Below, piece after piece: positions 13,741 through 63,856 of a stretch of 64,000 nucleotides of DNA. The notes beneath the pieces are model-generated. The model searched no databases, was not told where the DNA came from, and was given only the letters and a program-made list of their open reading frames with translations. Position 1 is the stretch's first letter. Each line of letters begins with the position of its first letter. The position numbers were made by a program, and so were the translations under genes. The DNA is from Bacillaceae bacterium JMAK1. Its GTDB lineage: Bacteria > Bacillota > Bacilli > Bacillales > Marinococcaceae. Where the stretch lies: the NCBI GenBank assembly GCA_012970285.1, contig JIBW01000002.1, forward strand, positions 310,001 to 374,000, given 5' to 3'.

Positions 13741-13854
13741 TTAGCAGTATGCAGAACCTACGATTATGAGTAAGATGAAAAGCACAACAACAAATGCAAA
13801 TCCGCCTAAACCCTGTGATCCGCCATATCCACCGCTGTGACAACATTCTGACAT
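13741..13854 (-). CDS. YjcZ-family sporulation protein
   Basis: A 37-aa protein reading MSECCHSGGYGGSQGLGGF followed by a hydrophobic stretch AFVVVLFILLIIVGSAYC. This Cys/Gly-rich head plus single C-terminal membrane helix is the hallmark of the YjcZ/SscA small spore-protein family. AGGAGG lies 8 nt before the ATG. A sigma-K-like promoter lies about 55 nt upstream, so expression late in the mother cell is expected. Role in the spore coat is inferred from the family. Confidence 0.88.
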   Translation of the reverse strand: MSECCHSGGYGGSQGLGGFAFVVVLFILLIIVGSAYC

Positions 13855-13907
13855 GTAGCATTCCTCCTGGAATCTTGAATTCTTAGAGAACCGCTTGCTC
13901 TCCATAC

Positions 13908-13936
13908 TAACCTATGCAAAGCACCTAAAACGGGTG
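13908..13936 (-). promoter_or_regulatory. Sigma-K-like promoter of the yjcZ-type gene
   Basis: On the minus strand: CACC, 16 nt, then CATAGGTTA, fitting the sigma-K consensus (mACm -35; CATAnnnTA -10). The 15-mer around the -10 box recurs exactly before the small gene at 20904. Confidence 0.65.
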
Positions 13937-14044
13937 TGTAAGAAAATTGAAATCGGGCGATTACCTATTCAGCTTTGAAAATAATCATAGCTTGTAATTC
14001 TGCGAATACAATGTGGTAATACGATGGGTAAAGGGAGGAAGGGT

Positions 14045-14746
14045 ATGAGTACGAAAAAAAGACACAACCAAGTTCAACCTCTTCTATATATTGATAATCC
14101 GAATCATTCAATGCCAACGGTTGGTGATAATGAGCTCGAACTATTATACAAAAGAACGATCAAAGAAAATTTAAAAGAAGTTGAGGAAACTGAACCTTTA
14201 AAAGAACCTTCATCGTCATCTAATATGAACGATGAGGAAATAAGCGAACAAAAAAACCTAAGTAAAGAACCTTCATCGGATTCTAATGAAGATGAACTAC
14301 CAAAGAAACGTTCTTTCGATTTAAATCGACACCTTGGTCCGAATTGGAAGACATCCATTGAATCGCCTAATTCAAAAGCAAACGAAATATTGCGTGAGGC
14401 ACTTGAGGAAAGAGTCCGAGAACCAAAGGGTACGAACAAAAAAGATGAACGTACGAGTAAAGAGAAGTCTCATTCACGCAACTCTTCAGAACAGCTCGTC
14501 CAACCTTCACGTAAAAAAGGGTTTGAAAACCGTTCGACAGAAGATAAAGTGAAATTGCTCTATAAATTGAGAACGCTAAATCCAACCGTTTGCATTTGTC
14601 AAACGAAAGAAGAAACATGGGTCGGCAACGTCACTGATCTTGAAGAAGATCAATTTACGATGCAGACCCAACAATTACCTTATCAAGTAACGATACGGTA
14701 CGAGGATGTGATTGACTTAACCCTCGATCATTTCTCTAGTGTTTAA
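14045..14746 (+). CDS. cotO: Spore coat protein CotO family
   Basis: A 233-aa hydrophilic protein. It begins with basic residues and LLYIDNP, has a long Ser/Glu/Lys-rich disordered middle, and ends in a compact domain STEDKVKLLYKL...CICQTKEETWVGNVTDLEEDQFTMQ, which resembles the C-terminus of B. subtilis CotO (YjbX). CotO is a morphogenetic protein of the outer coat/crust. GGGAGGA lies 6 nt upstream of ATG 14045; ATG 14024 precedes that site. It is convergent with the CotY-like gene (4 bp between stops), whereas in B. subtilis cotO and cotZ/cotY face the same way. Confidence 0.8.
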   Translation: MSTKKRHNQVQPLLYIDNPNHSMPTVGDNELELLYKRTIKENLKEVEETEPLKEPSSSSNMNDEEISEQKNLSKEPSSDSNEDELPKKRSFDLNRHLGPNWKTSIESPNSKANEILREALEERVREPKGTNKKDERTSKEKSHSRNSSEQLVQPSRKKGFENRSTEDKVKLLYKLRTLNPTVCICQTKEETWVGNVTDLEEDQFTMQTQQLPYQVTIRYEDVIDLTLDHFSSV

Positions 14747-52196: not shown

Positions 52197-53729
52197 TCAA
52201 TAACCCGATGATTCTTGGTCGACATCGATTGCATCGAACATTGTATACGATTTTGTTTGTAACGGTTTTTCAGCAGGACCTTCGATAACTTCTCCGGTAT
52301 GAGAAAACCGTGATCCGTGACAAGGACAGTCCCACGTGCGATCCCCATCATTCCAGTTCACTTCACAACCGAGGTGTGTACAAGTCGTATCAACGATATG
52401 AAGTTCGCCCTCATCATCTCTAAATGCCCCACTTCGCTGACCGTTATGTTTGAATACTGTCCCAGTTCCCCGTTCTAGTTCGTCTAAAGATTGCTTCGTT
52501 CCATCTAGCTTCCCTTTTATTAGATGTGTAGCGACGTTCAAATTCTCACGAAGAAACGTCACGATCGACGGGTCAGCGTAAAAGCGTTTAGGGTTATACA
52601 AATCGGCATAACGGTTTTGTTTTTGCTCTGCTAAGTCGCTTAAGATCATGGCAGCGAGCGTGCCTGTTGTCATGCCCCATTTTCGATACCCTGTACTGAC
52701 GAAGATATTCGGGTAATCGTCATGCATCGGTCCGATGTACGGTAATTTATCAAGCGTCGTTAAATCTTGCGCTGACCAGCGATCAATCACCTGTTTGATT
52801 CCGAACGTTTCTTCGGCGAATTTCTCTAAAGCTAAGTAATGATGGGACACGGCTTCTCCTTGTCCTGCTTTATGACTTTCGCCTCCGATTAATAACACGT
52901 CTTTCCCCTTATAATATGCTTTACGTATTGATCTTGTATTGGATGATTCAGGGTTTAAATACATTCCATCATCGATCATTTGCATCGGCTCAATCGCAAT
53001 AACGTAGGAGCGTTCGGCGGTAAGTCTTGAAAAATAAAAATGACTACCTTCATAAAAGGGGAAATGAGTACAAATGTAAACGTTTGAACAAGTAATATGA
53101 CTGCCATCACTCGTCTCTACGACGGTTTGTTCATCGTGTTTTATGTTAACTGCAACCGTGTTTTCGTAAATGGTTCCGCCTGCTCGAGTAATTTCTTGAA
53201 CGAGTGCAGAAAGGTATTTTGTCGGGTGCATCTCAGCTTGGTTTGTCATTTTTAATGCTTTTTTTGATGAGAGCATATCAATTTGTGCATGTTCATACGG
53301 GATGTTTAACGCATCATAGGCCTTTTCTTCTTGTTCTAGCTTTTGTACGTAGCGATCACTCGTAGCATAAAGAATTGCATCTTTTTTTTCGTAGTCACAA
53401 TCGATCGCAAGCTCTTGAATGGTGGATTCAATTAGCTTTGCTGCATCAACAGCACCTTCATAATGGATACGGGCATTACTTTTGCCGACTGTTGATTTAA
53501 ATTCGTCGTAGATTAGCGCATGTTGAGCAGTGATCTTAGCCGTCGTATGCCCAGTTGTCCCATTCATGAGCTGGCTCGCATCGATAACTGTGACCTTTTT
53601 TCCTTTCTTTGAAAGCAGATAGGCGAGAGTAATTCCAGTAATCCCAGCACCGACGATCAGATGATCAACATCTAAGTCGGATTCCACTTTCGGGAACGAT
53701 TGCTCTTGTTTGTTTAGCCAAATACTCAT
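52197..53729 (-). CDS. yhfW: FAD-dependent oxidoreductase with Rieske domain (YhfW-like)
   Basis: A 510-aa fusion. The N-terminal DAO-type FAD domain has HLIVGAGITGITLAYLLSK and GTTGHTTAKIT; the C-terminal ~90 residues form a Rieske [2Fe-2S] domain with CTHLGCEVNWN and CPCHGSRF. It matches B. subtilis YhfW in length and layout. Catalyses an unknown oxidation in the cytoplasm. Transcribed alone; the region 52126-52196 holds nothing else. Confidence 0.9.
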   Translation of the reverse strand: MSIWLNKQEQSFPKVESDLDVDHLIVGAGITGITLAYLLSKKGKKVTVIDASQLMNGTTGHTTAKITAQHALIYDEFKSTVGKSNARIHYEGAVDAAKLIESTIQELAIDCDYEKKDAILYATSDRYVQKLEQEEKAYDALNIPYEHAQIDMLSSKKALKMTNQAEMHPTKYLSALVQEITRAGGTIYENTVAVNIKHDEQTVVETSDGSHITCSNVYICTHFPFYEGSHFYFSRLTAERSYVIAIEPMQMIDDGMYLNPESSNTRSIRKAYYKGKDVLLIGGESHKAGQGEAVSHHYLALEKFAEETFGIKQVIDRWSAQDLTTLDKLPYIGPMHDDYPNIFVSTGYRKWGMTTGTLAAMILSDLAEQKQNRYADLYNPKRFYADPSIVTFLRENLNVATHLIKGKLDGTKQSLDELERGTGTVFKHNGQRSGAFRDDEGELHIVDTTCTHLGCEVNWNDGDRTWDCPCHGSRFSHTGEVIEGPAEKPLQTKSYTMFDAIDVDQESSGY

Positions 53730-55717: not shown

Positions 55718-55787
55718 CGATACGCTAGCGTATCGAAAATGACCATCAGAACCGTCTAAGAGATATTTCGGTTAGCAACCGAGTTTA

Positions 55788-55810
55788 GAACCCTTCAGGG
55801 TTCTTTTTTT
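55788..55810 (+). terminator. Terminator before the TRAP operon
   Basis: GAACCC-TTCA-GGGTTC with T7. Two further hairpins precede it (55718-55735 and 55769-55781). Confidence 0.85.
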
Positions 55811-55850: not shown

Positions 55851-55878
55851 TTGTAATTTGTTTTATAAGTTGTATACT
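55851..55878 (+). promoter_or_regulatory. Promoter of the TRAP/hydroxyacid operon
   Basis: TTGTAA-N16-TATACT; the -10 box lies within the left arm and spacer of the palindrome at 55861-55897. Confidence 0.55.
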
Positions 55879-55897
55879 TGTCATACAACTTATAAAA
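55861..55897 (+). promoter_or_regulatory. 15-bp-arm palindromic operator
   Basis: Perfect inverted repeat: arms TTTTATAAGTTGTAT (55861-55875) and its complement (55883-55897), 7-nt spacer ACTTGTC. It contains TTGTCATACAA, a TTGT-N3-ACAA core typical of FadR-subfamily GntR operators. It overlaps the -10 box. Likely bound by the GntR protein encoded in the operon. Confidence 0.75.
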
Positions 55898-55906
55898 GCG
55901 CTTACA
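55893..55906 (+). promoter_or_regulatory. Candidate cre site (CcpA)
   Basis: TAAAAGCGCTTACA against TGWAANCGNTNWCA: one mismatch at position 2. It lies just after the transcription start, suited to repression on preferred sugars. Confidence 0.65.
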
Positions 55907-55924: not shown

Positions 55925-56923
55925 GTGCTTAAGAAAACAACGATTTTTGCAGGGCTAGTTAGTGCGTCAATGTTGTTGGCATCTTGTAATGAAGGAAATC
56001 AATACTTTTCAATTGCTACAGCATCAACAGGTGGTACATATTATCCAATCGGTGTAGGAATGGGAAATTTGTGGACAGAAGAATTGATTGATGAAGGTAT
56101 ACGAGCGACAGGTCAGTCTTCTGCGGGTTCAGTGGAAAACATTGATTTACTCAGAAAAGAAGAAGCGCAATTCGCAATACTCCAAGGGCTTATCGCAGAT
56201 CAAGCGTATCAAGGAACCTCAGTATTTGAAGGGAATGCTTACGAAGACTTACGTTCCATTACGATGCTATGGCCAAATGTTGAACACTTTGTGCTTATGA
56301 ACAATTACGTTGAGACAGGAACGATCGCTGATATTGAAGGTCAGTCATTTTCTGTAGGACCACAAGCGAGTGGAACTGAACAGTCGACTCTTGCTTTAAT
56401 TAATGGAATCGACCTCTCAATTAATGACATTTCACCTGATTATCTCGGTTACGATGACACGATCTCATCGATGCGTGACGGACGATTAGATGGGGGTTCA
56501 TTACCAGCAGGGGTTCCAGTAACAGCAATTACGGATATGTTTGCAAGTGGGGTCAACGCAAGTGTTCTTGATGTGACTGATGAACAATTAGACTCAATTA
56601 ATGACGGACAACCTGTCTTTTTTAGATACACGATTGAAGAAGAGTCATATCCAAGACAAGAAGAACCTATTGAAACGATTGCACAATCTAATATTTTAGC
56701 TGTTGATAAAGATCTTGATGATGAGAGCGTTTACCGTTTGACGAAGATTTTATTTGAGAACTTAGAGACGATGTATCAAGTTCATAATTCCGCAAAAGCG
56801 ATGTCGTTAGAATCAGCATTAGACGGGGTTTCTGTGCCGTTACATGTTGGGGCGTATACGTATTTTGAAGAAGTTGGAATAGATATTCCAGAGGAACTTG
56901 TTCCTCCAGAGGCAACAGAATAA
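55925..56923 (+). CDS. TAXI-family TRAP transporter solute-binding lipoprotein
   Basis: A 332-aa extracytoplasmic receptor. Lipobox LASC (Cys about residue 21); then the TAXI signature SIATASTGGTYYPIGVGMGNLW, and QSSAGSVENIDLLRKEEAQFAILQ. TAXI receptors bind small carboxylates such as glutamate-like acids. GTG start 55925 follows AGGGGAGGG by 6 nt. First gene of the operon; the permease begins 25 nt after its stop. Confidence 0.93.
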   Translation: MLKKTTIFAGLVSASMLLASCNEGNQYFSIATASTGGTYYPIGVGMGNLWTEELIDEGIRATGQSSAGSVENIDLLRKEEAQFAILQGLIADQAYQGTSVFEGNAYEDLRSITMLWPNVEHFVLMNNYVETGTIADIEGQSFSVGPQASGTEQSTLALINGIDLSINDISPDYLGYDDTISSMRDGRLDGGSLPAGVPVTAITDMFASGVNASVLDVTDEQLDSINDGQPVFFRYTIEEESYPRQEEPIETIAQSNILAVDKDLDDESVYRLTKILFENLETMYQVHNSAKAMSLESALDGVSVPLHVGAYTYFEEVGIDIPEELVPPEATE

Positions 56924-56948
56924 TAAAACGGATTAAGGGGGACATGTG

Positions 56949-58910
56949 ATGGCTGTAAATGAAGCAACTGACGTAAAAGAAAAGAACGTTGAGCAAGACC
57001 AAGCAATGATGGGAAGGCAGTTAAAAGGTTGGCAGTACAAAACAATGGCTGTTATTGCAATTCTCTTATCTGGATTCGCCATATACGTAAATAGTTTAAT
57101 GAATATTCAAGAGATCTATCGAAACATTATCTTCTTGACCTTATTACTCATCTTAGCGTTTTTGTTGTATCCAGCTCGAAAAAAAGGAAATATGAAAAAA
57201 TTTACAAAAATTGACCTTGCATTAGCAATTATTAGTATAATAGGAACAGGTTATATTTTAATTTTCTATACGACAATACATGTTGACCGTGTTTCACAAG
57301 CGATTCCAATTGATTATGTTTTCGCAATCATCACGGTACTTTTACTACTCGAAGCATCGAGAAGAACACTCGGGACGTTTATTCCAATTTTAGCTGGTGC
57401 GGCAATAATTTATGCTGTTTTTGGTCCTTATTTTCCAGGGATGTTCGGTCATGCTGGGTTTAGTATTGAACGTTTACTCTACAGAGTGTATATGACAACA
57501 GAAGGAGTCTTCGGTATAACGTTGTCAATTGCATCCACGTATATCGTTATTTTTATTTTGTTTGGAGCATTTTTAAGTGTTAGTGGAGCTTCGAAGTTAT
57601 TTAATGACTTAGCCATCGCAGTTGCTGGACAACGACGCGGTGGACCTGCTCAAGTAGCAGTTATTTCTAGTGCATTAACAGGTTCATTAAATGGAAGTGC
57701 GGTGGCAAACGTTGCAACAACAGGTGCGTTTACGATTCCACTAATGAAGCAAGTAGGTTTAAAGCGTAACTATGCGGCGGCAGTGGAAGCGACTGCATCA
57801 ACTGGCGGTATGATGATGCCGCCGATTATGGGTGCTGCAGCATTTATTATGGCAGGTTTTCTTGGGGTGCCGTATGCAACCGTCGTATTTGCGGCGATTA
57901 TCCCGACATTCTTGTACTTTATTGCCCTCGTATTTGCGATTGATTTAGAAGCGAAGAAGCAAGGGTTAAAAGGGATGAGTAAAGACTCCATTCCACAAGT
58001 GTGGACAGTATTAAAAGAACGAGGGGTTCTACTGCTACCGATTCTGATCGTAATTGGAACTTTACTTGCGGGTTATACACCGTTATTTGCAGGGTTTGCT
58101 GGAATTATATCAGTGGTCATTGCAAGTTGGTTAACGAAAGATAAAGAAACACGAGTGAACATCTCCAAAGTTAAAGAAGCGTTTATTGGCGGGGCAAGAA
58201 GCTCTGTCCAAGTAGGTCTTGCATGTGCATCAATCGGGATTATTATTGCCGTTGTAACGATGTCAGGACTCGGATCGGCGATTGCATACAACGTCTTAAA
58301 TGCCGCGAATGGCATGCTTTGGATTGCGTTACTACTCGTCATGGTTACGTGTATCGTATTAAGTATGGGTCTGCCTTCAACAGCTCTTTATATCGTCGTT
58401 GCTGTTACTGCAGCTCCAGCACTGATTGAAATGGGAATTAACCCAATTGCAGCGCATTTCTTCGTGTTCTGGTTCGGTGCACTTTCGAATATTACACCGC
58501 CAGTGGCACTGGCATCTTATACTGCAGCGGGAATAGCGGGCGCAGATGCAATGAAGACGTCTTGGACGTCTGTAAAGTTAGCTTTACCAGGGTTTATTAT
58601 TCCATTTATGATTGCGTACAACCCAGTGATGGTCTTACAAGAAACGAGTACACACTCAGTAACGTTTTTGACGGTTACGACAACCGTTGTGACATGTGTC
58701 ATCGGTGTGTTTGCGATGGCTGTCGCTTTAAGTGGCTATCTATCAACGGATTTACAAGTAGTAGAACGAATTACGTTCTTCGTTGGGGCGATTCTTTTAA
58801 TTGCTCCAGGAATGATGACAAATGTCATCGGTTTTGTTCTAATCGGGTTGACGATGGCTTGGCATATGATGCGTTCAAAACGTGAGACAGCAGTAAACAT
58901 GACATCCTAA
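56949..58910 (+). CDS. Fused TRAP transporter permease (DctQ-DctM, TAXI type)
   Basis: A 653-aa membrane protein combining a small DctQ-like part (about four helices, residues ~30-165) and a large DctM domain (~170-640). The M-domain motifs LNGSAVANVATTGAFTIPLMK and AAVEATASTGGMMMPPIMGAAAFIMA, and SMGLPSTALYIVVA are typical of the fused TAXI permeases. Na+ or H+ driven symport with the upstream receptor. ATG 56949 is about 8 nt from AAGGGGG. Confidence 0.94.
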   Translation: MAVNEATDVKEKNVEQDQAMMGRQLKGWQYKTMAVIAILLSGFAIYVNSLMNIQEIYRNIIFLTLLLILAFLLYPARKKGNMKKFTKIDLALAIISIIGTGYILIFYTTIHVDRVSQAIPIDYVFAIITVLLLLEASRRTLGTFIPILAGAAIIYAVFGPYFPGMFGHAGFSIERLLYRVYMTTEGVFGITLSIASTYIVIFILFGAFLSVSGASKLFNDLAIAVAGQRRGGPAQVAVISSALTGSLNGSAVANVATTGAFTIPLMKQVGLKRNYAAAVEATASTGGMMMPPIMGAAAFIMAGFLGVPYATVVFAAIIPTFLYFIALVFAIDLEAKKQGLKGMSKDSIPQVWTVLKERGVLLLPILIVIGTLLAGYTPLFAGFAGIISVVIASWLTKDKETRVNISKVKEAFIGGARSSVQVGLACASIGIIIAVVTMSGLGSAIAYNVLNAANGMLWIALLLVMVTCIVLSMGLPSTALYIVVAVTAAPALIEMGINPIAAHFFVFWFGALSNITPPVALASYTAAGIAGADAMKTSWTSVKLALPGFIIPFMIAYNPVMVLQETSTHSVTFLTVTTTVVTCVIGVFAMAVALSGYLSTDLQVVERITFFVGAILLIAPGMMTNVIGFVLIGLTMAWHMMRSKRETAVNMTS

Positions 58911-58923
58911 AAGGTGTGATCAA

Positions 58924-59634
58924 ATGAGCAAAGTTTTTATCGAGCGGAAACACATTTCACAACAAGTGTTAGAACAATTAAAAGAAATGATTCTGGAAGA
59001 ACCATATCGTCGAGGGGTGAAACTACCTTCTGAACAAGAACTTTCTGATTTGTTTCAAGTAAGTCGTTCACCGATTCGAGAAGCACTAAGCGTGTTAACC
59101 GCAGCAGGCGTTATTGAATCAAAACAAGGTGGCGGCAGATGGGTGAAAGACGTGAAGCTCGTCGATATGCTCTCGAATTTAAAAATGGGACTTGTTTCTA
59201 TGGAGGAAGTGCACTCCCTCCTAGAAATGCGTCACATCATTGAAACAGAGGCGGCTGCACTAGCAGCGACTCGCGCGAGTGAACGTGATCTCGATCGATT
59301 AGAAACCGCATTACTACAGTTTAAAGAGACGGTTCAAGATGAAACGGTGATTGGTAGTGAAGCTGATACACATTTTCATTATGAAATTGTACGTGCATCA
59401 AAGAACCCATTTCTCGTGTCTTCACTAGAAAATATCGGAGAATTGTTAAATCGTGCAATTGAATATTCCCTTCGATTTAATGTTGGGAAAACCGAGAAGC
59501 GTCGAGATGTTTATAAAGAACATGAAAACGTGTTTCTAGCCATACAACAAGGTGATGCGTCAGGTGCTCGGGAAGCAATGAATGTACACATTACGAATGT
59601 TCGTAAAAAACTAGGTGACACGAGTCTGGACTAA
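58924..59634 (+). CDS. FadR-subfamily GntR transcriptional regulator
   Basis: A 236-aa regulator. N-terminal winged helix-turn-helix: KLPSEQELSDLFQVSRSPIREALSVLTAAGVIE; C-terminal FCD domain with metal/acid ligand pattern EMRHIIETEAAALA, DTHFHYEIVRAS and EHENVFLAI. FCD proteins sense carboxylic acids. Encoded inside the operon it probably controls, 13 nt after the permease gene; the TTGT-N3-ACAA palindrome at the operon promoter is its likely operator. Confidence 0.93.
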   Translation: MSKVFIERKHISQQVLEQLKEMILEEPYRRGVKLPSEQELSDLFQVSRSPIREALSVLTAAGVIESKQGGGRWVKDVKLVDMLSNLKMGLVSMEEVHSLLEMRHIIETEAAALAATRASERDLDRLETALLQFKETVQDETVIGSEADTHFHYEIVRASKNPFLVSSLENIGELLNRAIEYSLRFNVGKTEKRRDVYKEHENVFLAIQQGDASGAREAMNVHITNVRKKLGDTSLD

Positions 59635-59650
59635 AAAGGATGAATACAGG

Positions 59651-61078
59651 ATGAATGAGAACAGTAACACAACAGAACTCGTTCAAAGGTTACGGGCGAA
59701 ACAGCTCATTAATGAGAGTCGAATCTTAACGTCACTGTCTGATCGTGCGTCATATGCTTATGACGCATCGTTCGGACATCACATTCCTGAAGTTGTCATA
59801 CAACCGACAGCTACGAATGAAGTTTCAGAGATCATCACACTAGCTAATGAATTACATGTACCAATTTATCCAAGAGGCCAAGGAACATCGTTAAGTGGTG
59901 GTCCAATTCCAGTGTACGGTGGCGTCGTGTTGGATTTTTCTCAATGGGACGACCGATTGGAGATTTATCCTGACGATATGATTGCAGTCGTTTCCCCGGG
60001 GGTCATTACGAGCCATATTGACGAAGCTGCCAAAGCCTATTCAATGATGTACCCCCCAGACCCAAGTAGTATGAATGTCTCGACCATCGGGGGCAATCTT
60101 GCTGAAAATGCTGGAGGACCGAGAGGGTTAAAGTACGGTGTAACGAAAGACTACGTACTCGGCCTAGAAATTGTTACAGCAAATGGTGATATTATTCGAA
60201 CCGGAGGTCAAACGGTTAAAAATGTCACTGGCTATGATTTAACGAAACTAATTGTCGGTTCAGAAGGAACACTTGCTGTTATTACTGAGGCAACGCTAAA
60301 ACTCGTTCCCCGTCCTAAAGCACATAAAACGATGCTCGTCTTGTTTGACGATCTCATCGATTCAGGAAAAGCAATTAGTGCGATTCTACGTGAAGGAATT
60401 ACACCATCAAAGCTTGAGATTATGGACCAAGCTTCAATAAAAGCTGTGGAAGCTTATCAACCGACAGGGCTGCCGATTGATGTCGAGGCACTACTCTTAA
60501 TAGAGATTGACGGACACCCACTTGCAATTGAAGAAGAAGCAGAAGAAGTACAAGAGTGTTGTTTGAAGAATGGGGCGAGGGAAGTGCAAATTGCCAAAAG
60601 TGCTGAGGAAGCAAGCAAGTTTTGGCAAGCTAGAAAGCTCGTTTCACCTGCGATTGTGCAAGTGAAACCTACGAAAATCTCAGAAGATGCAACCGTTCCA
60701 AGAAGTAAGATTCCAGAGATGTTTCGAATTTTAAAAGAGATTAAAGACGCGAACAACATCGATCTTGTTGTGTTTGGTCATGCTGGAGATGGTAATCTTC
60801 ATCCGAATATTATTGCGGATGTTCGAGATGAAGAAGAGATGAAACGTGTAGAAAAAGCTGTAGGGGAGATCTTTGAAGCAGCAATTGCACTTGGTGGCAC
60901 ATTATCTGGAGAGCATGGAATTGGTACGATGAAAGCGCCATTTATGGAAATGGAACTCGGAACAAAAGGGTTAGCACTGATGAAGACGGTAAAGGAGAGT
61001 TTTGATCCGAACAACATTTTAAACCCTGGGAAGATTTTTCCTGAAAAGGGCCAAAAGTTGGTGTTACGCGATGGTTGA
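59651..61078 (+). CDS. GlcD-like FAD-linked 2-hydroxyacid dehydrogenase
   Basis: A 475-aa FAD_binding_4/FAD-oxidase C flavoprotein of the GlcD / D-lactate / D-2-hydroxyglutarate dehydrogenase family. FAD loop: PRGQGTSLSGG; MNVSTIGGNLAENAGGPRGLKYG; C-terminal VFGHAGDGNLHPN and SGEHGIGTMKAPFM with the metal-binding His pair. ATG 59651 starts after GGATGAATACAGG. Works with the iron-sulphur partner encoded next (8-nt overlap). Confidence 0.92.
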   Translation: MNENSNTTELVQRLRAKQLINESRILTSLSDRASYAYDASFGHHIPEVVIQPTATNEVSEIITLANELHVPIYPRGQGTSLSGGPIPVYGGVVLDFSQWDDRLEIYPDDMIAVVSPGVITSHIDEAAKAYSMMYPPDPSSMNVSTIGGNLAENAGGPRGLKYGVTKDYVLGLEIVTANGDIIRTGGQTVKNVTGYDLTKLIVGSEGTLAVITEATLKLVPRPKAHKTMLVLFDDLIDSGKAISAILREGITPSKLEIMDQASIKAVEAYQPTGLPIDVEALLLIEIDGHPLAIEEEAEEVQECCLKNGAREVQIAKSAEEASKFWQARKLVSPAIVQVKPTKISEDATVPRSKIPEMFRILKEIKDANNIDLVVFGHAGDGNLHPNIIADVRDEEEMKRVEKAVGEIFEAAIALGGTLSGEHGIGTMKAPFMEMELGTKGLALMKTVKESFDPNNILNPGKIFPEKGQKLVLRDG

Positions 61079-62336
61079 TAAACGACTTGCCTATAAAGAG
61101 ACGTTTGATTGTGTTCAATGCGGGTACTGTTTGCCTGCCTGCCCAACGTATCAGACGATGAACAAAGAAACGCATAGTCCAAGAGGGCGAATTAATCTCG
61201 TGAAAATGGCTGCTGAAGGAAAAATCAGTTACGACGATTTAAAAGAACCGATTGACATGTGTCTCGGTTGCCGTGCATGTGAAACGGCATGCCCGACGAA
61301 TGTTCAATATGGATCGATCTTAGAGTCAGCAAAAGAGGTTTTGCGTGATGAAACAAAACGTTCAAAACGTGAACAGTTCATCGAACACGCACTCTTTGAA
61401 AAGCTACTTCCTCATTCATCGATGCTTTCAATTGCAAAGTTCGGTTTATTCTCTTATCAACGACTGCCTTTACAATTTGTTGCTCGAAAAACGGGTGTTC
61501 TTAAAGCAGTACTTCCTAAAGGAATGGTCGCATTCGAATCAATCTTACCGAAGGCGGAACGATCGAAAGAAAAGAAATCGAACGATGAAGACGCGCCACC
61601 GGGAACCGTTAAAGTTGCATATTTTCTCGGGTGTCTAATGGATACGATGTTTTCAACGATTAATGACCAAGCGATTCAATTGTTACGAAAAGCAGGCGTT
61701 CACGTGACAGTCGTTAAAGATCAATCGTGTTGCGGTGCGTTGCAATCACATGGTGGGGATTTTAAAACAGCACGTCAGCTAGCAAAGAAAAACATTGAGG
61801 CATTCGAAAATGGATCGTTTGATTACATTGTGTCAAGCATCGGTGGCTGTGGTGCGATGCTCGTTGAATACGATCATCTACTAAAAGACGAACCCGCGTG
61901 GAAAGAACGTGCAGAACGATTTGCCAAAAAGCATGCAGACATTTCCATTGTCTTGGCACAAAGTGAATTGACATATAATCACCATGTTAATCATACAGCT
62001 GTCTATCAACCGTCTTGTCATATGACCCATGTTCAAAAGAATGTCGATGCACCATTCGAGTTGATCGCTAAAGTCCCCGGGCTGAATTATGTGCCTATGG
62101 ACAAACAAGATCTTTGCTGTGGTTCAGCAGGGATTTACAACATCGTGAACTACGAAGCATCGATGGACATTTTAGACTATAAAATGCCAGCGGTCGTCAG
62201 TGCGAAACCAGATTTGATTATTACGACGAATCCAGGCTGTCATTTACAAATGAAAATGGGTGTAGAACGTGAAGGGCTCAGTCATCAGATTCAAGTGAAA
62301 CATCTCGTTGAAGTCATCGCAGAATCTTGTTTATAG
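61071..62336 (+). CDS. GlcF-like iron-sulphur subunit
   Basis: A 421-aa electron-transfer subunit: two [4Fe-4S] motifs, CVQCGYCLPACP and CLGCRACETACP (residues ~12-90), then two CCG domains with QSCCGALQSHGG and DLCCGSAGIYN. This is the GlcF/LutA-type partner that passes electrons from the flavoprotein to quinone. The start overlaps the previous gene, so translation is coupled. Confidence 0.93.
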   Translation: MVDKRLAYKETFDCVQCGYCLPACPTYQTMNKETHSPRGRINLVKMAAEGKISYDDLKEPIDMCLGCRACETACPTNVQYGSILESAKEVLRDETKRSKREQFIEHALFEKLLPHSSMLSIAKFGLFSYQRLPLQFVARKTGVLKAVLPKGMVAFESILPKAERSKEKKSNDEDAPPGTVKVAYFLGCLMDTMFSTINDQAIQLLRKAGVHVTVVKDQSCCGALQSHGGDFKTARQLAKKNIEAFENGSFDYIVSSIGGCGAMLVEYDHLLKDEPAWKERAERFAKKHADISIVLAQSELTYNHHVNHTAVYQPSCHMTHVQKNVDAPFELIAKVPGLNYVPMDKQDLCCGSAGIYNIVNYEASMDILDYKMPAVVSAKPDLIITTNPGCHLQMKMGVEREGLSHQIQVKHLVEVIAESCL

Positions 62337-62347
62337 GAGAGGGTAAC

Positions 62348-63544
62348 ATGCATGATTACACAATTATCGGGGGAGGAATCGTCGGTTTAAGCGTTGCTTA
62401 CAACCTACTAAACGAGAATCCTAACGTAAAGGTTCAAGTTATTGAAAAAGAAAAAGAAGTAGCTTCACATCAGACCGGTCATAACAGTGGCGTCATTCAT
62501 TCAGGTATTTATTACAAGCCTGGTAGCTATAAAGCGAAGTTTGCAAAAGCAGGTAGTGAATCGATGCGTGCATTTTGTCAAGAACATCATGTGGATGTTG
62601 ATATATGTGGCAAAGTAATTGTCGCAACAGACGAATCTGAATTAACAAACCTCGAGAATCTGTATGAGCGAGGAAGAACGAACGGCCTTGATGTTGAGCT
62701 CCTAGATGCAGATCAGTTAAAAGAAATTGAACCTCACGTAAATGGTATAAAAGCAATTCGAGTTCCGACGGCTGGAATCGTCAGTTACAAAGACGTATCT
62801 GAGAAATTAGCAGAATTAATTAGAAACAACGGAGGCACACTTCACTTAAATGAGGAAGTAACATCCATTGTTGAAACTAAACAATCCGTTACAGTTAGAA
62901 CGAACAACAAAACGTACCATTCCCACTACCTTATTAATTGTGCGGGTTTACAAAGTGATCGGATTGCCAAGATGGCTGGTTATCATTTAGACATGAAGAT
63001 TGTGCCATTTCGCGGAGAGTATTATAAGTTGAAGCCCGAAAAACGCTATCTCGTCAATAACCTCATTTACCCAGTACCTAACCCTGAATTCCCGTTTTTA
63101 GGTGTTCACTTTACTCGAATGATTGATGGGGAAGTGGATGCAGGTCCAAATGCTGTTTTGTCCTTTAAACGCGAAGGGTATAACAAGACCGATTTTAATG
63201 CGAAAGACTTGTCTGAAGTGCTAACGTACGGTGGTTTTTGGCGAATTGCACGCAAATATATGAAAACGGGAATTGGAGAAATGGTTCGTTCTTACAACAA
63301 AGATGAGTTTGTAAAGAGTTTGCAACGTCTAATTCCAGAAGTACAAAAAGAAGACCTCGTTAAAGCACCAAGTGGGGTTCGTGCACAGGCGCTGACGGTA
63401 GAAGGAAAGATGGTGGATGATTTCCATCTAGTGAACGGGAGGCGTTCGCTTCACGTATGCAATGCACCATCACCGGCTGCAACTGCATCATTAGAAATAG
63501 GAAAAGAAATTGCAAAACAAGTCCTTGTTCCTAAAACAAGCTAG
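62348..63544 (+). CDS. lhgO: LhgO-like L-2-hydroxyglutarate oxidase/dehydrogenase
   Basis: A 398-aa FAD-dependent DAO-fold enzyme. N-terminal FAD site TIIGGGIVGLSVAYNLL; family motifs HQTGHNSGVIHSGIYYKPGSYKA, FRGEYYKLKPEKRYLVNNLIYPVP and FLGVHFTRMIDG are typical of L-2-hydroxyglutarate dehydrogenases, which yield 2-oxoglutarate and reduce quinone. ATG 62348 follows AGGAGAGGG; the longer frame from 62327 overlaps the previous stop. Last gene of the operon; no clear terminator follows. Confidence 0.92.
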   Translation: MHDYTIIGGGIVGLSVAYNLLNENPNVKVQVIEKEKEVASHQTGHNSGVIHSGIYYKPGSYKAKFAKAGSESMRAFCQEHHVDVDICGKVIVATDESELTNLENLYERGRTNGLDVELLDADQLKEIEPHVNGIKAIRVPTAGIVSYKDVSEKLAELIRNNGGTLHLNEEVTSIVETKQSVTVRTNNKTYHSHYLINCAGLQSDRIAKMAGYHLDMKIVPFRGEYYKLKPEKRYLVNNLIYPVPNPEFPFLGVHFTRMIDGEVDAGPNAVLSFKREGYNKTDFNAKDLSEVLTYGGFWRIARKYMKTGIGEMVRSYNKDEFVKSLQRLIPEVQKEDLVKAPSGVRAQALTVEGKMVDDFHLVNGRRSLHVCNAPSPAATASLEIGKEIAKQVLVPKTS

Positions 63545-63699: not shown

Positions 63700-63831
63700 G
63701 TGATCGTATTGACTTGGGAGTTATACGCTTTGGAATACGAGATTCACGACATCAGGAATGAACTTAGACGATTACAAGAAGAGGCAGACCAAATAAAGCA
63801 AGCATTTCAAACGAGGCAACTCGAAGAGTAA
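63700..63831 (+). CDS. 43-aa coiled-coil protein
   Basis: MIVLTWELYALEYEIHDI... to ...QAFQTRQLEE, a heptad-rich amphipathic helix. The GTG start at 63700 has AGGGGG 6 nt upstream; TATAAT (63662-63667) with TTTACA 15 nt before it forms a plausible promoter, and a terminator follows. Function unknown. Confidence 0.6.
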   Translation: MIVLTWELYALEYEIHDIRNELRRLQEEADQIKQAFQTRQLEE

Positions 63832-63856
63832 GCGTACACGGAATGTGTGCGTTTTT
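63831..63856 (+). terminator. Weak terminator after the 43-aa gene
   Basis: GCGTACAC pairs with GTGTGCGT through two G-T wobbles, followed by T5. Confidence 0.6.

Follow-up and report, generated by a model that had tools for sequence, protein, structure and literature searches.

Conserved six-gene operon in a Bacillaceae genome with a proposed role in the import and oxidation of 2-hydroxyglutarate

A stretch of 64,000 nucleotides (nt) from Bacillaceae bacterium JMAK1 (contig JIBW01000002.1, positions 310,001 to 374,000; hereafter the window, in whose positions coordinates are given) was analysed for a six-gene operon at 55925-63544 that may serve the uptake and oxidation of 2-hydroxyglutarate. 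All six open reading frames (ORFs) lie on the + strand and were assigned to families by profile scores, which bore out the gene set named for this span by an earlier sequence-only reading. The six genes and the hairpins on either side are:

55925-56923, + strand: TAXI solute receptor, 332 amino acids (aa); TIGR02122 270.6 bits (cut-off 84.35), PF16868 356.8 bits (cut-off 27)
56946-58910, + strand: fused TRAP permease, 654 aa; TIGR02123 686.7 bits (cut-off 320.65)
58924-59634, + strand: GntR-family regulator with FCD ligand domain, 236 aa; PF00392 67.5 bits and PF07729 95.1 bits, both above cut-off
59651-61078, + strand: GlcD-like flavin adenine dinucleotide (FAD) subunit, proposed subunit of a D-2-hydroxyglutarate dehydrogenase; TIGR00387 508.6 bits; alternative GTG start at 59615
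61071-62336, + strand: GlcF-like subunit; NF008434 249.3 bits; two CxxCxxCxxxC motifs and two CCG motifs
62348-63544, + strand: LhgO, predicted L-2-hydroxyglutarate oxidase/dehydrogenase, 398 aa; NF008726 606.6 bits (cut-off 299); alternative TTG start at 62327
55787-55804, + strand: terminator-like hairpin upstream of the operon
63830-63854, + strand: terminator-like hairpin downstream of the operon

GlcD and GlcF missed the glycolate equivalog cut-offs of their models (567.9 for TIGR00387 and 333 for NF008434), no GlcE gene was found among the six, and none of the best 25 of 26 NCBIfam models for the regulator reached its own cut-off. Taken from the ORF ends, the successive junctions measure 22 nt, 13 nt, 16 nt, an 8-nt overlap and 11 nt; the third becomes a 20-nt overlap if glcD starts at the GTG at 59615, and the last a 10-nt overlap if lhgO starts at the TTG at 62327. 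None of the 15 terminator-like sites detected in the region falls in any of the five junctions, in agreement with the tight packing and lack of an internal terminator described before.

For the genome comparison that the sequence-only reading had proposed, the receptor was searched at E ≤ 1e-85 in two overlapping genome sets, 397 from the order and 398 from the class, and was present in 20 and 9 genomes, respectively, making 26 different genomes. G000, G008 and G011 (the window's own genus, and G011) were set aside and 20 kb were fetched around the remaining 23 receptor loci. glcD and glcF were present in 22 of the 23 clusters and lhgO in 19, so that linkage to the receptor is tighter for glcDF than for lhgO; the gene order of the window was kept in 18 (in four of these with extra genes interspersed), and in L213 lhgO precedes glcDF. 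Beyond the six genes, the commonest ORF family (by ORF clustering) occurred in 7 of the 24 fetched loci (the 23 and L228, a second glcDF locus treated below). The neighbours of the cluster vary, yet its gene set turns up again in different families of Bacilli, so that the association is more than chance and the six genes form a conserved unit. Four clusters lack lhgO (L226, L227, L233, L234); the genomes of L226 and L227 carry it elsewhere, and in L227 just receptor and permease remain, the latter as two ORFs. Within the window's genus, the operon is intact in G008, present in G009 (L057 3543-4537) with the receptor as two ORFs and a shortened LhgO ORF, and reduced in G010 to LhgO in two pieces. 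LhgO was also scanned for in named genomes, where the best 80 of 590 loci were inspected with flanks of up to 10 kb: 68 of the 80 carried, as far as these flanks reach, lhgO without any of its five partners, and three (Bacillus litorisediminis, B. chungangensis and Cytobacillus oceanisediminis) held all six. Since lhgO by itself is common, the six-gene operon is one among several lhgO contexts.

The assignment of L-2-hydroxyglutarate as the substrate of LhgO, made before, is well supported by sequence comparison, with a score far above cut-off. In Drosophila L2HGDH, C1 is contacted by Ser88, Tyr289 and His302, the C2 oxygen by His92 and C5 by Arg393 and Leu299, and the enzyme is specific for L-2-hydroxyglutarate, being inactive on L-malate, L-lactate and D-2-hydroxyglutarate (PMC10726252). 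All six residues were conserved in the window LhgO (alignment to 8w75), in all 28 LhgO sequences aligned for the family, that of the window among them, and, when scored as motifs, in all 19 LhgO linked to the TAXI receptor; LhgO thus has all described substrate contacts of the LhgO/L2HGDH enzymes known from the E. coli CsiD-LhgO pathway, Drosophila and human. E. coli CsiD is a glutarate hydroxylase that yields L-2-hydroxyglutarate (PMC6265302). CsiD scored above cut-off in 6 of the 29 genomes of the family and in none of the four genomes of the window's genus. In G011 (443.6 bits, cut-off 333) and G015, CsiD lies between glcD-glcF, on the same strand, and a divergent TAXI-TRAP-fadR-lhgO set, which ties relatives of the locus to 2-hydroxyglutarate; in G005, G006 and G028 it adjoins lhgO. 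With no CsiD in the window's genus, lhgO there would not serve CsiD-dependent glutarate breakdown, and 2-hydroxyglutarate must derive from outside or from side reactions. Bacterial lhgO contexts described in the available part of PMC8206213 are csiD-lhgO-gab sets or a GntR gene with lhgO; the window differs in having its own importer and GlcDF and no CsiD. In Cytobacillus depressus (L113 2143-11227), lhgO was found with glcD, glcF, two acyl-coenzyme A (CoA) dehydrogenase-like genes, an enoyl-CoA hydratase and a CoA-transferase nearest to succinate-glutarate CoA-transferase (351.8 bits, below the cut-off of 750), which is possibly a glutarate/2-hydroxyglutarate CoA route.

The receptor carries a lipoprotein-like signal (LLASC, judged by eye). 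Its structural model (predicted local distance difference test, pLDDT, 91.5) best matched 9ibp (VCA0144 of Vibrio cholerae, 42% identity) in the PDB, followed by glutamate-bound 1us4, 8u79 and 9ibo, the glutamate-bound structures being 23-29% identical. The title of 9ibp names no ligand; 9ibp was not found in the open-access literature searched, and VCA0144 neither in the available part of PMC11574862 nor in the 10 articles listed of 425. In VcGluP, Tyr45 and Gln93 matter most and Gln93 contacts the amino group of the ligand (PMC11574862); they correspond to window Tyr39, present in 26 of 26 aligned receptors, and Gln87, present in at least 90% of the 26. At the Gln93 equivalent a hydroxyl may replace the amino group. 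Ligands of TAXI systems named in PMC12344293 are glutamate, 2-oxoglutarate, 2-hydroxyglutarate and phthalate, and a TAXI-TRAP of Proteus mirabilis specific for 2-oxoglutarate and 2-hydroxyglutarate is cited there. Import of 2-hydroxyglutarate, as proposed earlier, is likely in view of the 19 of 23 receptor clusters with lhgO, the retained Tyr and Gln of the glutamate site and the Proteus analogue, the ligand itself being a prediction. It is quite unlikely that the transporter takes up another C5 acid (glutamate, 2-oxoglutarate or glutarate) while the oxidases repair or recycle 2-hydroxyglutarate from internal side reactions. The L-glutamate in ligand-bound TAXI structures and the conserved Tyr45 and Gln93 positions would fit such an importer, and the CsiD-bearing variant would suit glutarate uptake; however, with CsiD in none of the four genomes of the window's genus glutarate uptake would be of no obvious use there, and repair leaves the adjacency of glcDF and importer unexplained. 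The window's genome holds eight TAXI receptors above the Pfam cut-off.

The GlcD pocket was compared with that of human D-2-hydroxyglutarate dehydrogenase, with mouse LDHD and 3pm9 as alignment partners and the residue spacing given in PMC7801405 and PMC10589216 used to place the positions. The catalytic and metal site of the human enzyme (Arg386, His434, His441, Glu475, His476) was present in the window GlcD and in 22 of 22 operon GlcDs from outside the genus; the set is not diagnostic, as it is common to D-lactate and glycolate enzymes. At the positions of human Thr390, Tyr432, Asn443 and Lys401, the residues are Ser, Phe, Asn and Ser in the window GlcD and Phe, Val, Leu and Cys in the glycolate GlcD of E. 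coli; on these residues the window pocket looks polar, more so than that of E. coli GlcD. The Asn443 position is occupied by Asn in 20 of the 22 operon GlcDs and by Thr in two (L231, L232). GlcDs of the family that are not linked to the receptor show the same pattern, except that 8 of 18 genes carry Asp in place of Asn443 (the 18 come from 19 rows, L100 and L228 being the same G013 gene, and the distant GlcD of G010 being left out), and the use of the pocket alone to discriminate D-2-hydroxyglutarate from glycolate enzymes was dropped, since these unlinked GlcDs share most of the pattern. For phylogeny, the very long rows L068 and L172 of a first tree were removed, and the second tree omits L068, a distant paralogue from the window's own genome, and E. 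coli. In it the window GlcD clusters with operon GlcDs of other families (L211, L212, L229; 96/95), apart from the other GlcDs of its own family, and on this placement GlcDF as the housekeeping glycolate oxidase of the strain was rejected as the main reading. A second glcDF in G013 (L228 4631-11238) shows another transporter pairing for GlcDF: next to it lie a gene of the glutamate-symporter family (PF03616), an FCD regulator and, as judged by eye, two hydrolase-like genes.

The operon resembles E. coli glcDEFGBA and Bacillus GlcDF in its GlcD and GlcF subunits, the closest curated names, and in its FCD-type regulator. An ordinary glycolate or lactate utilisation operon with an appended lhgO is nevertheless very improbable. 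Unlike E. coli glcDEFGBA, the window operon has no GlcE, GlcB, GlcG or GlcA and no malate synthase or lactate/glycolate permease, its GlcD and GlcF score below the glycolate equivalog cut-offs, its GlcD pocket looks more polar, and it is linked to a TAXI-TRAP system and LhgO. Neither glycolate nor lactate is among the TAXI ligands named in the available part of PMC12344293, and lhgO belongs to 19 of the 23 clusters.

Two of the clusters without lhgO, L233 and L234, come from different genera of the same family. Both combine regulator, receptor, permease and glcD-glcF with a gene for a 420-aa protein that stands between permease and glcD. The 420-aa protein of L234 matched NCBIfam nickel-pincer isomerase group 22 (NF052515) with 505.7 bits (cut-off 400), and the genome search gave 496.7 bits in G456 and 505.6 bits in G416, the two genomes concerned; no LhgO was found at E ≤ 1e-30 in either genome. 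The nickel-pincer cofactor requires LarC. LarC was detected in both variant genomes, and also in the three other genomes searched, the window's own included, so that its presence is a weak point. LarAH7 and LarAH32 are proven 2-hydroxyglutarate racemases of the LarA superfamily, and group 22 is not among the LarA groups assayed in the available parts of the two articles (PMC7583248, PMC11770544). The simple reading of L233 and L234 is that the isomerase turns the L-form into the D-form for a D-specific GlcDF, by which lhgO would become dispensable. Twenty group 22 copies with 1.5-kb flanks were 36-44% identical to the protein of the variant; no other operon genes were found in these flanks, bar one weak TRAP match, and 9 of the 20 adjoin a galactonate-dehydratase-like ORF (by eye). 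Together with the occurrence of group 22 above cut-off in 56 of 398 genomes, these flanks weakened the case for the group as a diagnostic 2-hydroxyglutarate racemase.

Upstream of the receptor gene the following elements were located:

55851-55878, + strand: promoter-like TTGTAA-16-TATACT, the one closest to the start codon, a consensus match only
55861-55897: proposed operator for the operon's own FCD regulator, a 15-bp perfect inverted repeat with 7-bp spacer that holds the core TATACTTGTCATACAA (55873-55888)
55893-55906, + strand: TAAAAGCGCTTACA, near match, with one mismatch, to the consensus of the catabolite-responsive element, present in part of the orthologues only

The promoter-like match is weak by itself, as the region has 21 such sites with 19.9 expected from shuffles; its -10 sits inside the conserved operator core. 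The core, searched as TATACTTGTNNTACAA at up to 2 mismatches, was found in 22 of 30 upstream regions, which include near relatives and are not independent (shuffled mean 0.08, maximum 1, in 100 dinucleotide-shuffle sets). It is the core that recurs, the long perfect arms being particular to the window. The core was missing in eight regions (L117, L050, L066, L227, L231, L232, L233 and L234); L231 and L232 keep TTGTCATACAA at -46 instead, and in L227, L233 and L234 the nearest regulator lies upstream of the receptor and is just 31-33% identical to that of the window. Divergent regulators at loci without the core fit an operator that belongs to the operon's own regulator, and the palindrome at 55861-55897 is presumably the binding site of this FCD protein. 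A wider regulon was rejected. The exact core occurs at one other site of the window's genome, perhaps by chance (C9:137977-137992, L270 7978-7993, ahead of a 42-aa ORF that is followed by purine genes), and at up to 1 mismatch the whole genome has 5 sites as compared with 7 for a reversed-pattern control.

The operon is best read as a system that imports 2-hydroxyglutarate and oxidises either isomer to 2-oxoglutarate, a reading to which we assign a probability of about 0.6; the L-arm by itself is much surer, and the importer and the D-arm are each likely as judged from sequence. It would be a ligand-induced operon that scavenges external 2-hydroxyglutarate. The membrane-anchored TAXI receptor would bind the acid and pass it to the fused TRAP permease; inside the cell, LhgO (with FAD) would oxidise the L-isomer and GlcDF (with FAD and Fe-S clusters) the D-isomer, both to 2-oxoglutarate, and electrons from both would go to menaquinone. 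The FCD regulator would sit as a repressor on the palindrome over the -10 box until 2-hydroxyglutarate or a close C5 acid releases it. The gene set and its conservation, the recurring operator core, the LhgO residues and the CsiD and isomerase variants were observed; in this scheme we infer the receptor ligand, the GlcDF substrate, the site and effector of the regulator and the electron acceptor.

Several observations speak against it. The equivalent of Lys401 is Ser in the window GlcD and in 22 of 22 operon GlcDs; loss of this lysine abolished human D-2-hydroxyglutarate dehydrogenase, it forms a salt bridge to the C5 carboxylate, and it is the sole such residue of the four compared (PMC7801405, PMC10589216). 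The solved structures nearest to GlcD are D-lactate dehydrogenases, a GlcD-like match (E ≤ 1e-60) occurs in 27 of the 29 family genomes, including some without LhgO above cut-off, and the TAXI-linked GlcDs do not form one clade (4 label changes; 18.6 in shuffles). For the receptor, other VcGluP contacts differ, Asp157, Tyr200 and Met201 being Thr, Leu and Pro in the window; for the variant, group 22 is as widespread as stated. The missing lysine, the D-lactate structures and the wide distribution of GlcD would also be expected if TAXI-TRAP and LhgO served L-2-hydroxyglutarate only and GlcDF oxidised another D-2-hydroxyacid (D-lactate, glycolate or D-malate) supplied by the transporter or the cell, as would the FAH-family genes (possible oxaloacetate or acylpyruvate enzymes) in 4 of the 23 clusters. 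This L-only arrangement is rather unlikely: it is at odds with glcDF standing beside the receptor in 22 of 23 clusters, with an isomerase taking the place of lhgO in two genomes, with the lack of a lactate/glycolate permease, malate synthase and glcE in the operon, and with a GlcD pocket that looks more polar than that of E. coli. GlcDF is likely, on sequence grounds, to be the D-2-hydroxyglutarate dehydrogenase of a two-isomer operon. As a whole the earlier interpretation is supported in part. The earlier claim that both stereoisomers are handled stands as far as gene context goes (glcDF linkage, and a LarA-type isomerase where lhgO is missing), and the Ser at the Lys401 position counts against it.

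The window GlcD and all 22 operon GlcDs have a Lys two residues ahead of the Lys401 position; in the predicted structure (model pLDDT 86.3) the two positions share one strand, 341-344. Only as a tentative proposal, more doubtful than the reading above, may the locus be a dedicated and regulated 2-hydroxyglutarate catabolic operon with a high-affinity importer and two stereospecific quinone-linked dehydrogenases, in which GlcDF would be a new subtype of D-2-hydroxyglutarate dehydrogenase that reads the distal carboxylate by this Lys, two residues from the usual one; in some Bacilli a nickel-pincer 2-hydroxyglutarate racemase would have replaced the L-branch, and one branch within isomerase group 22 would then gain a function.

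A description of the six-gene combination was not found among the articles listed from the open-access literature, in line with the earlier remark that the full combination was not known as a Bacillaceae pathway; within that literature the assembly looks new, its parts each being of known kinds. The near precedent is in PMC8651671. The Achromobacter D2HGDH-GntR (DhdR) operon described there shares a GntR regulator and a D-2-hydroxyacid flavoprotein with the window, and Bacillaceae d2hgdh clusters contain glcF, lldP, gntR or cdaR, with lldP and glcF adjoining d2hgdh in two Bacillaceae, Parageobacillus and B. cereus, where the authors leave the effector open. In the available part of that article these clusters name no TAXI-TRAP and no lhgO, and the window GlcD is without the human-type lysine. 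TAXI-TRAP systems (VcGluP, TtGluBP and, by description, that of Proteus mirabilis) share the TAXI fold, the fused permease and the Tyr and Gln of the ligand site, whereas identity to solved receptors is limited to the values given above. The LarAH7 and LarAH32 racemases compare with the LarA-superfamily isomerase in the place of lhgO in two operon variants, which belongs to group 22. If the operon imports both isomers, 2-hydroxyglutarate, so far studied mostly as a by-product for cells to clear, would be an environmental nutrient, and the receptor and permease, the two stereospecific oxidases and the sensor of the operon would be parts of use as biosensors. The GlcD subfamily, best matched by glycolate oxidase models, may be mis-annotated in these Bacilli.

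The FAH-family genes (about 205 aa) lie between regulator and glcD in four of the 23 clusters:

L218 9490-10107, - strand: FAH-family gene
L219 9826-10440: FAH-family gene
L220 9363-9986, - strand: FAH-family gene
L226 9757-10377: FAH-family gene

A second FCD-like regulator accompanies the gene in L218, L219 and L226. The FAH-family product may act on a by-product that is an oxo-acid, for example enol-oxaloacetate formed from D-malate. Downstream of the operon in L219 (15460-17502), a further FAH-family gene was found together with a malate/lactate dehydrogenase of the Ldh2 type (PF02615). In L232 a 222-aa ORF after lhgO (13779-14447) has weak GlcF/LdhH similarity (59.9 bits, cut-off 800; no Pfam match), and a similar ORF likewise follows lhgO in L231. 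In the window itself, an ORF on the - strand (52197-53729) resembles FAD-dependent oxidoreductases and has a Rieske-like C-terminus, as judged by eye.

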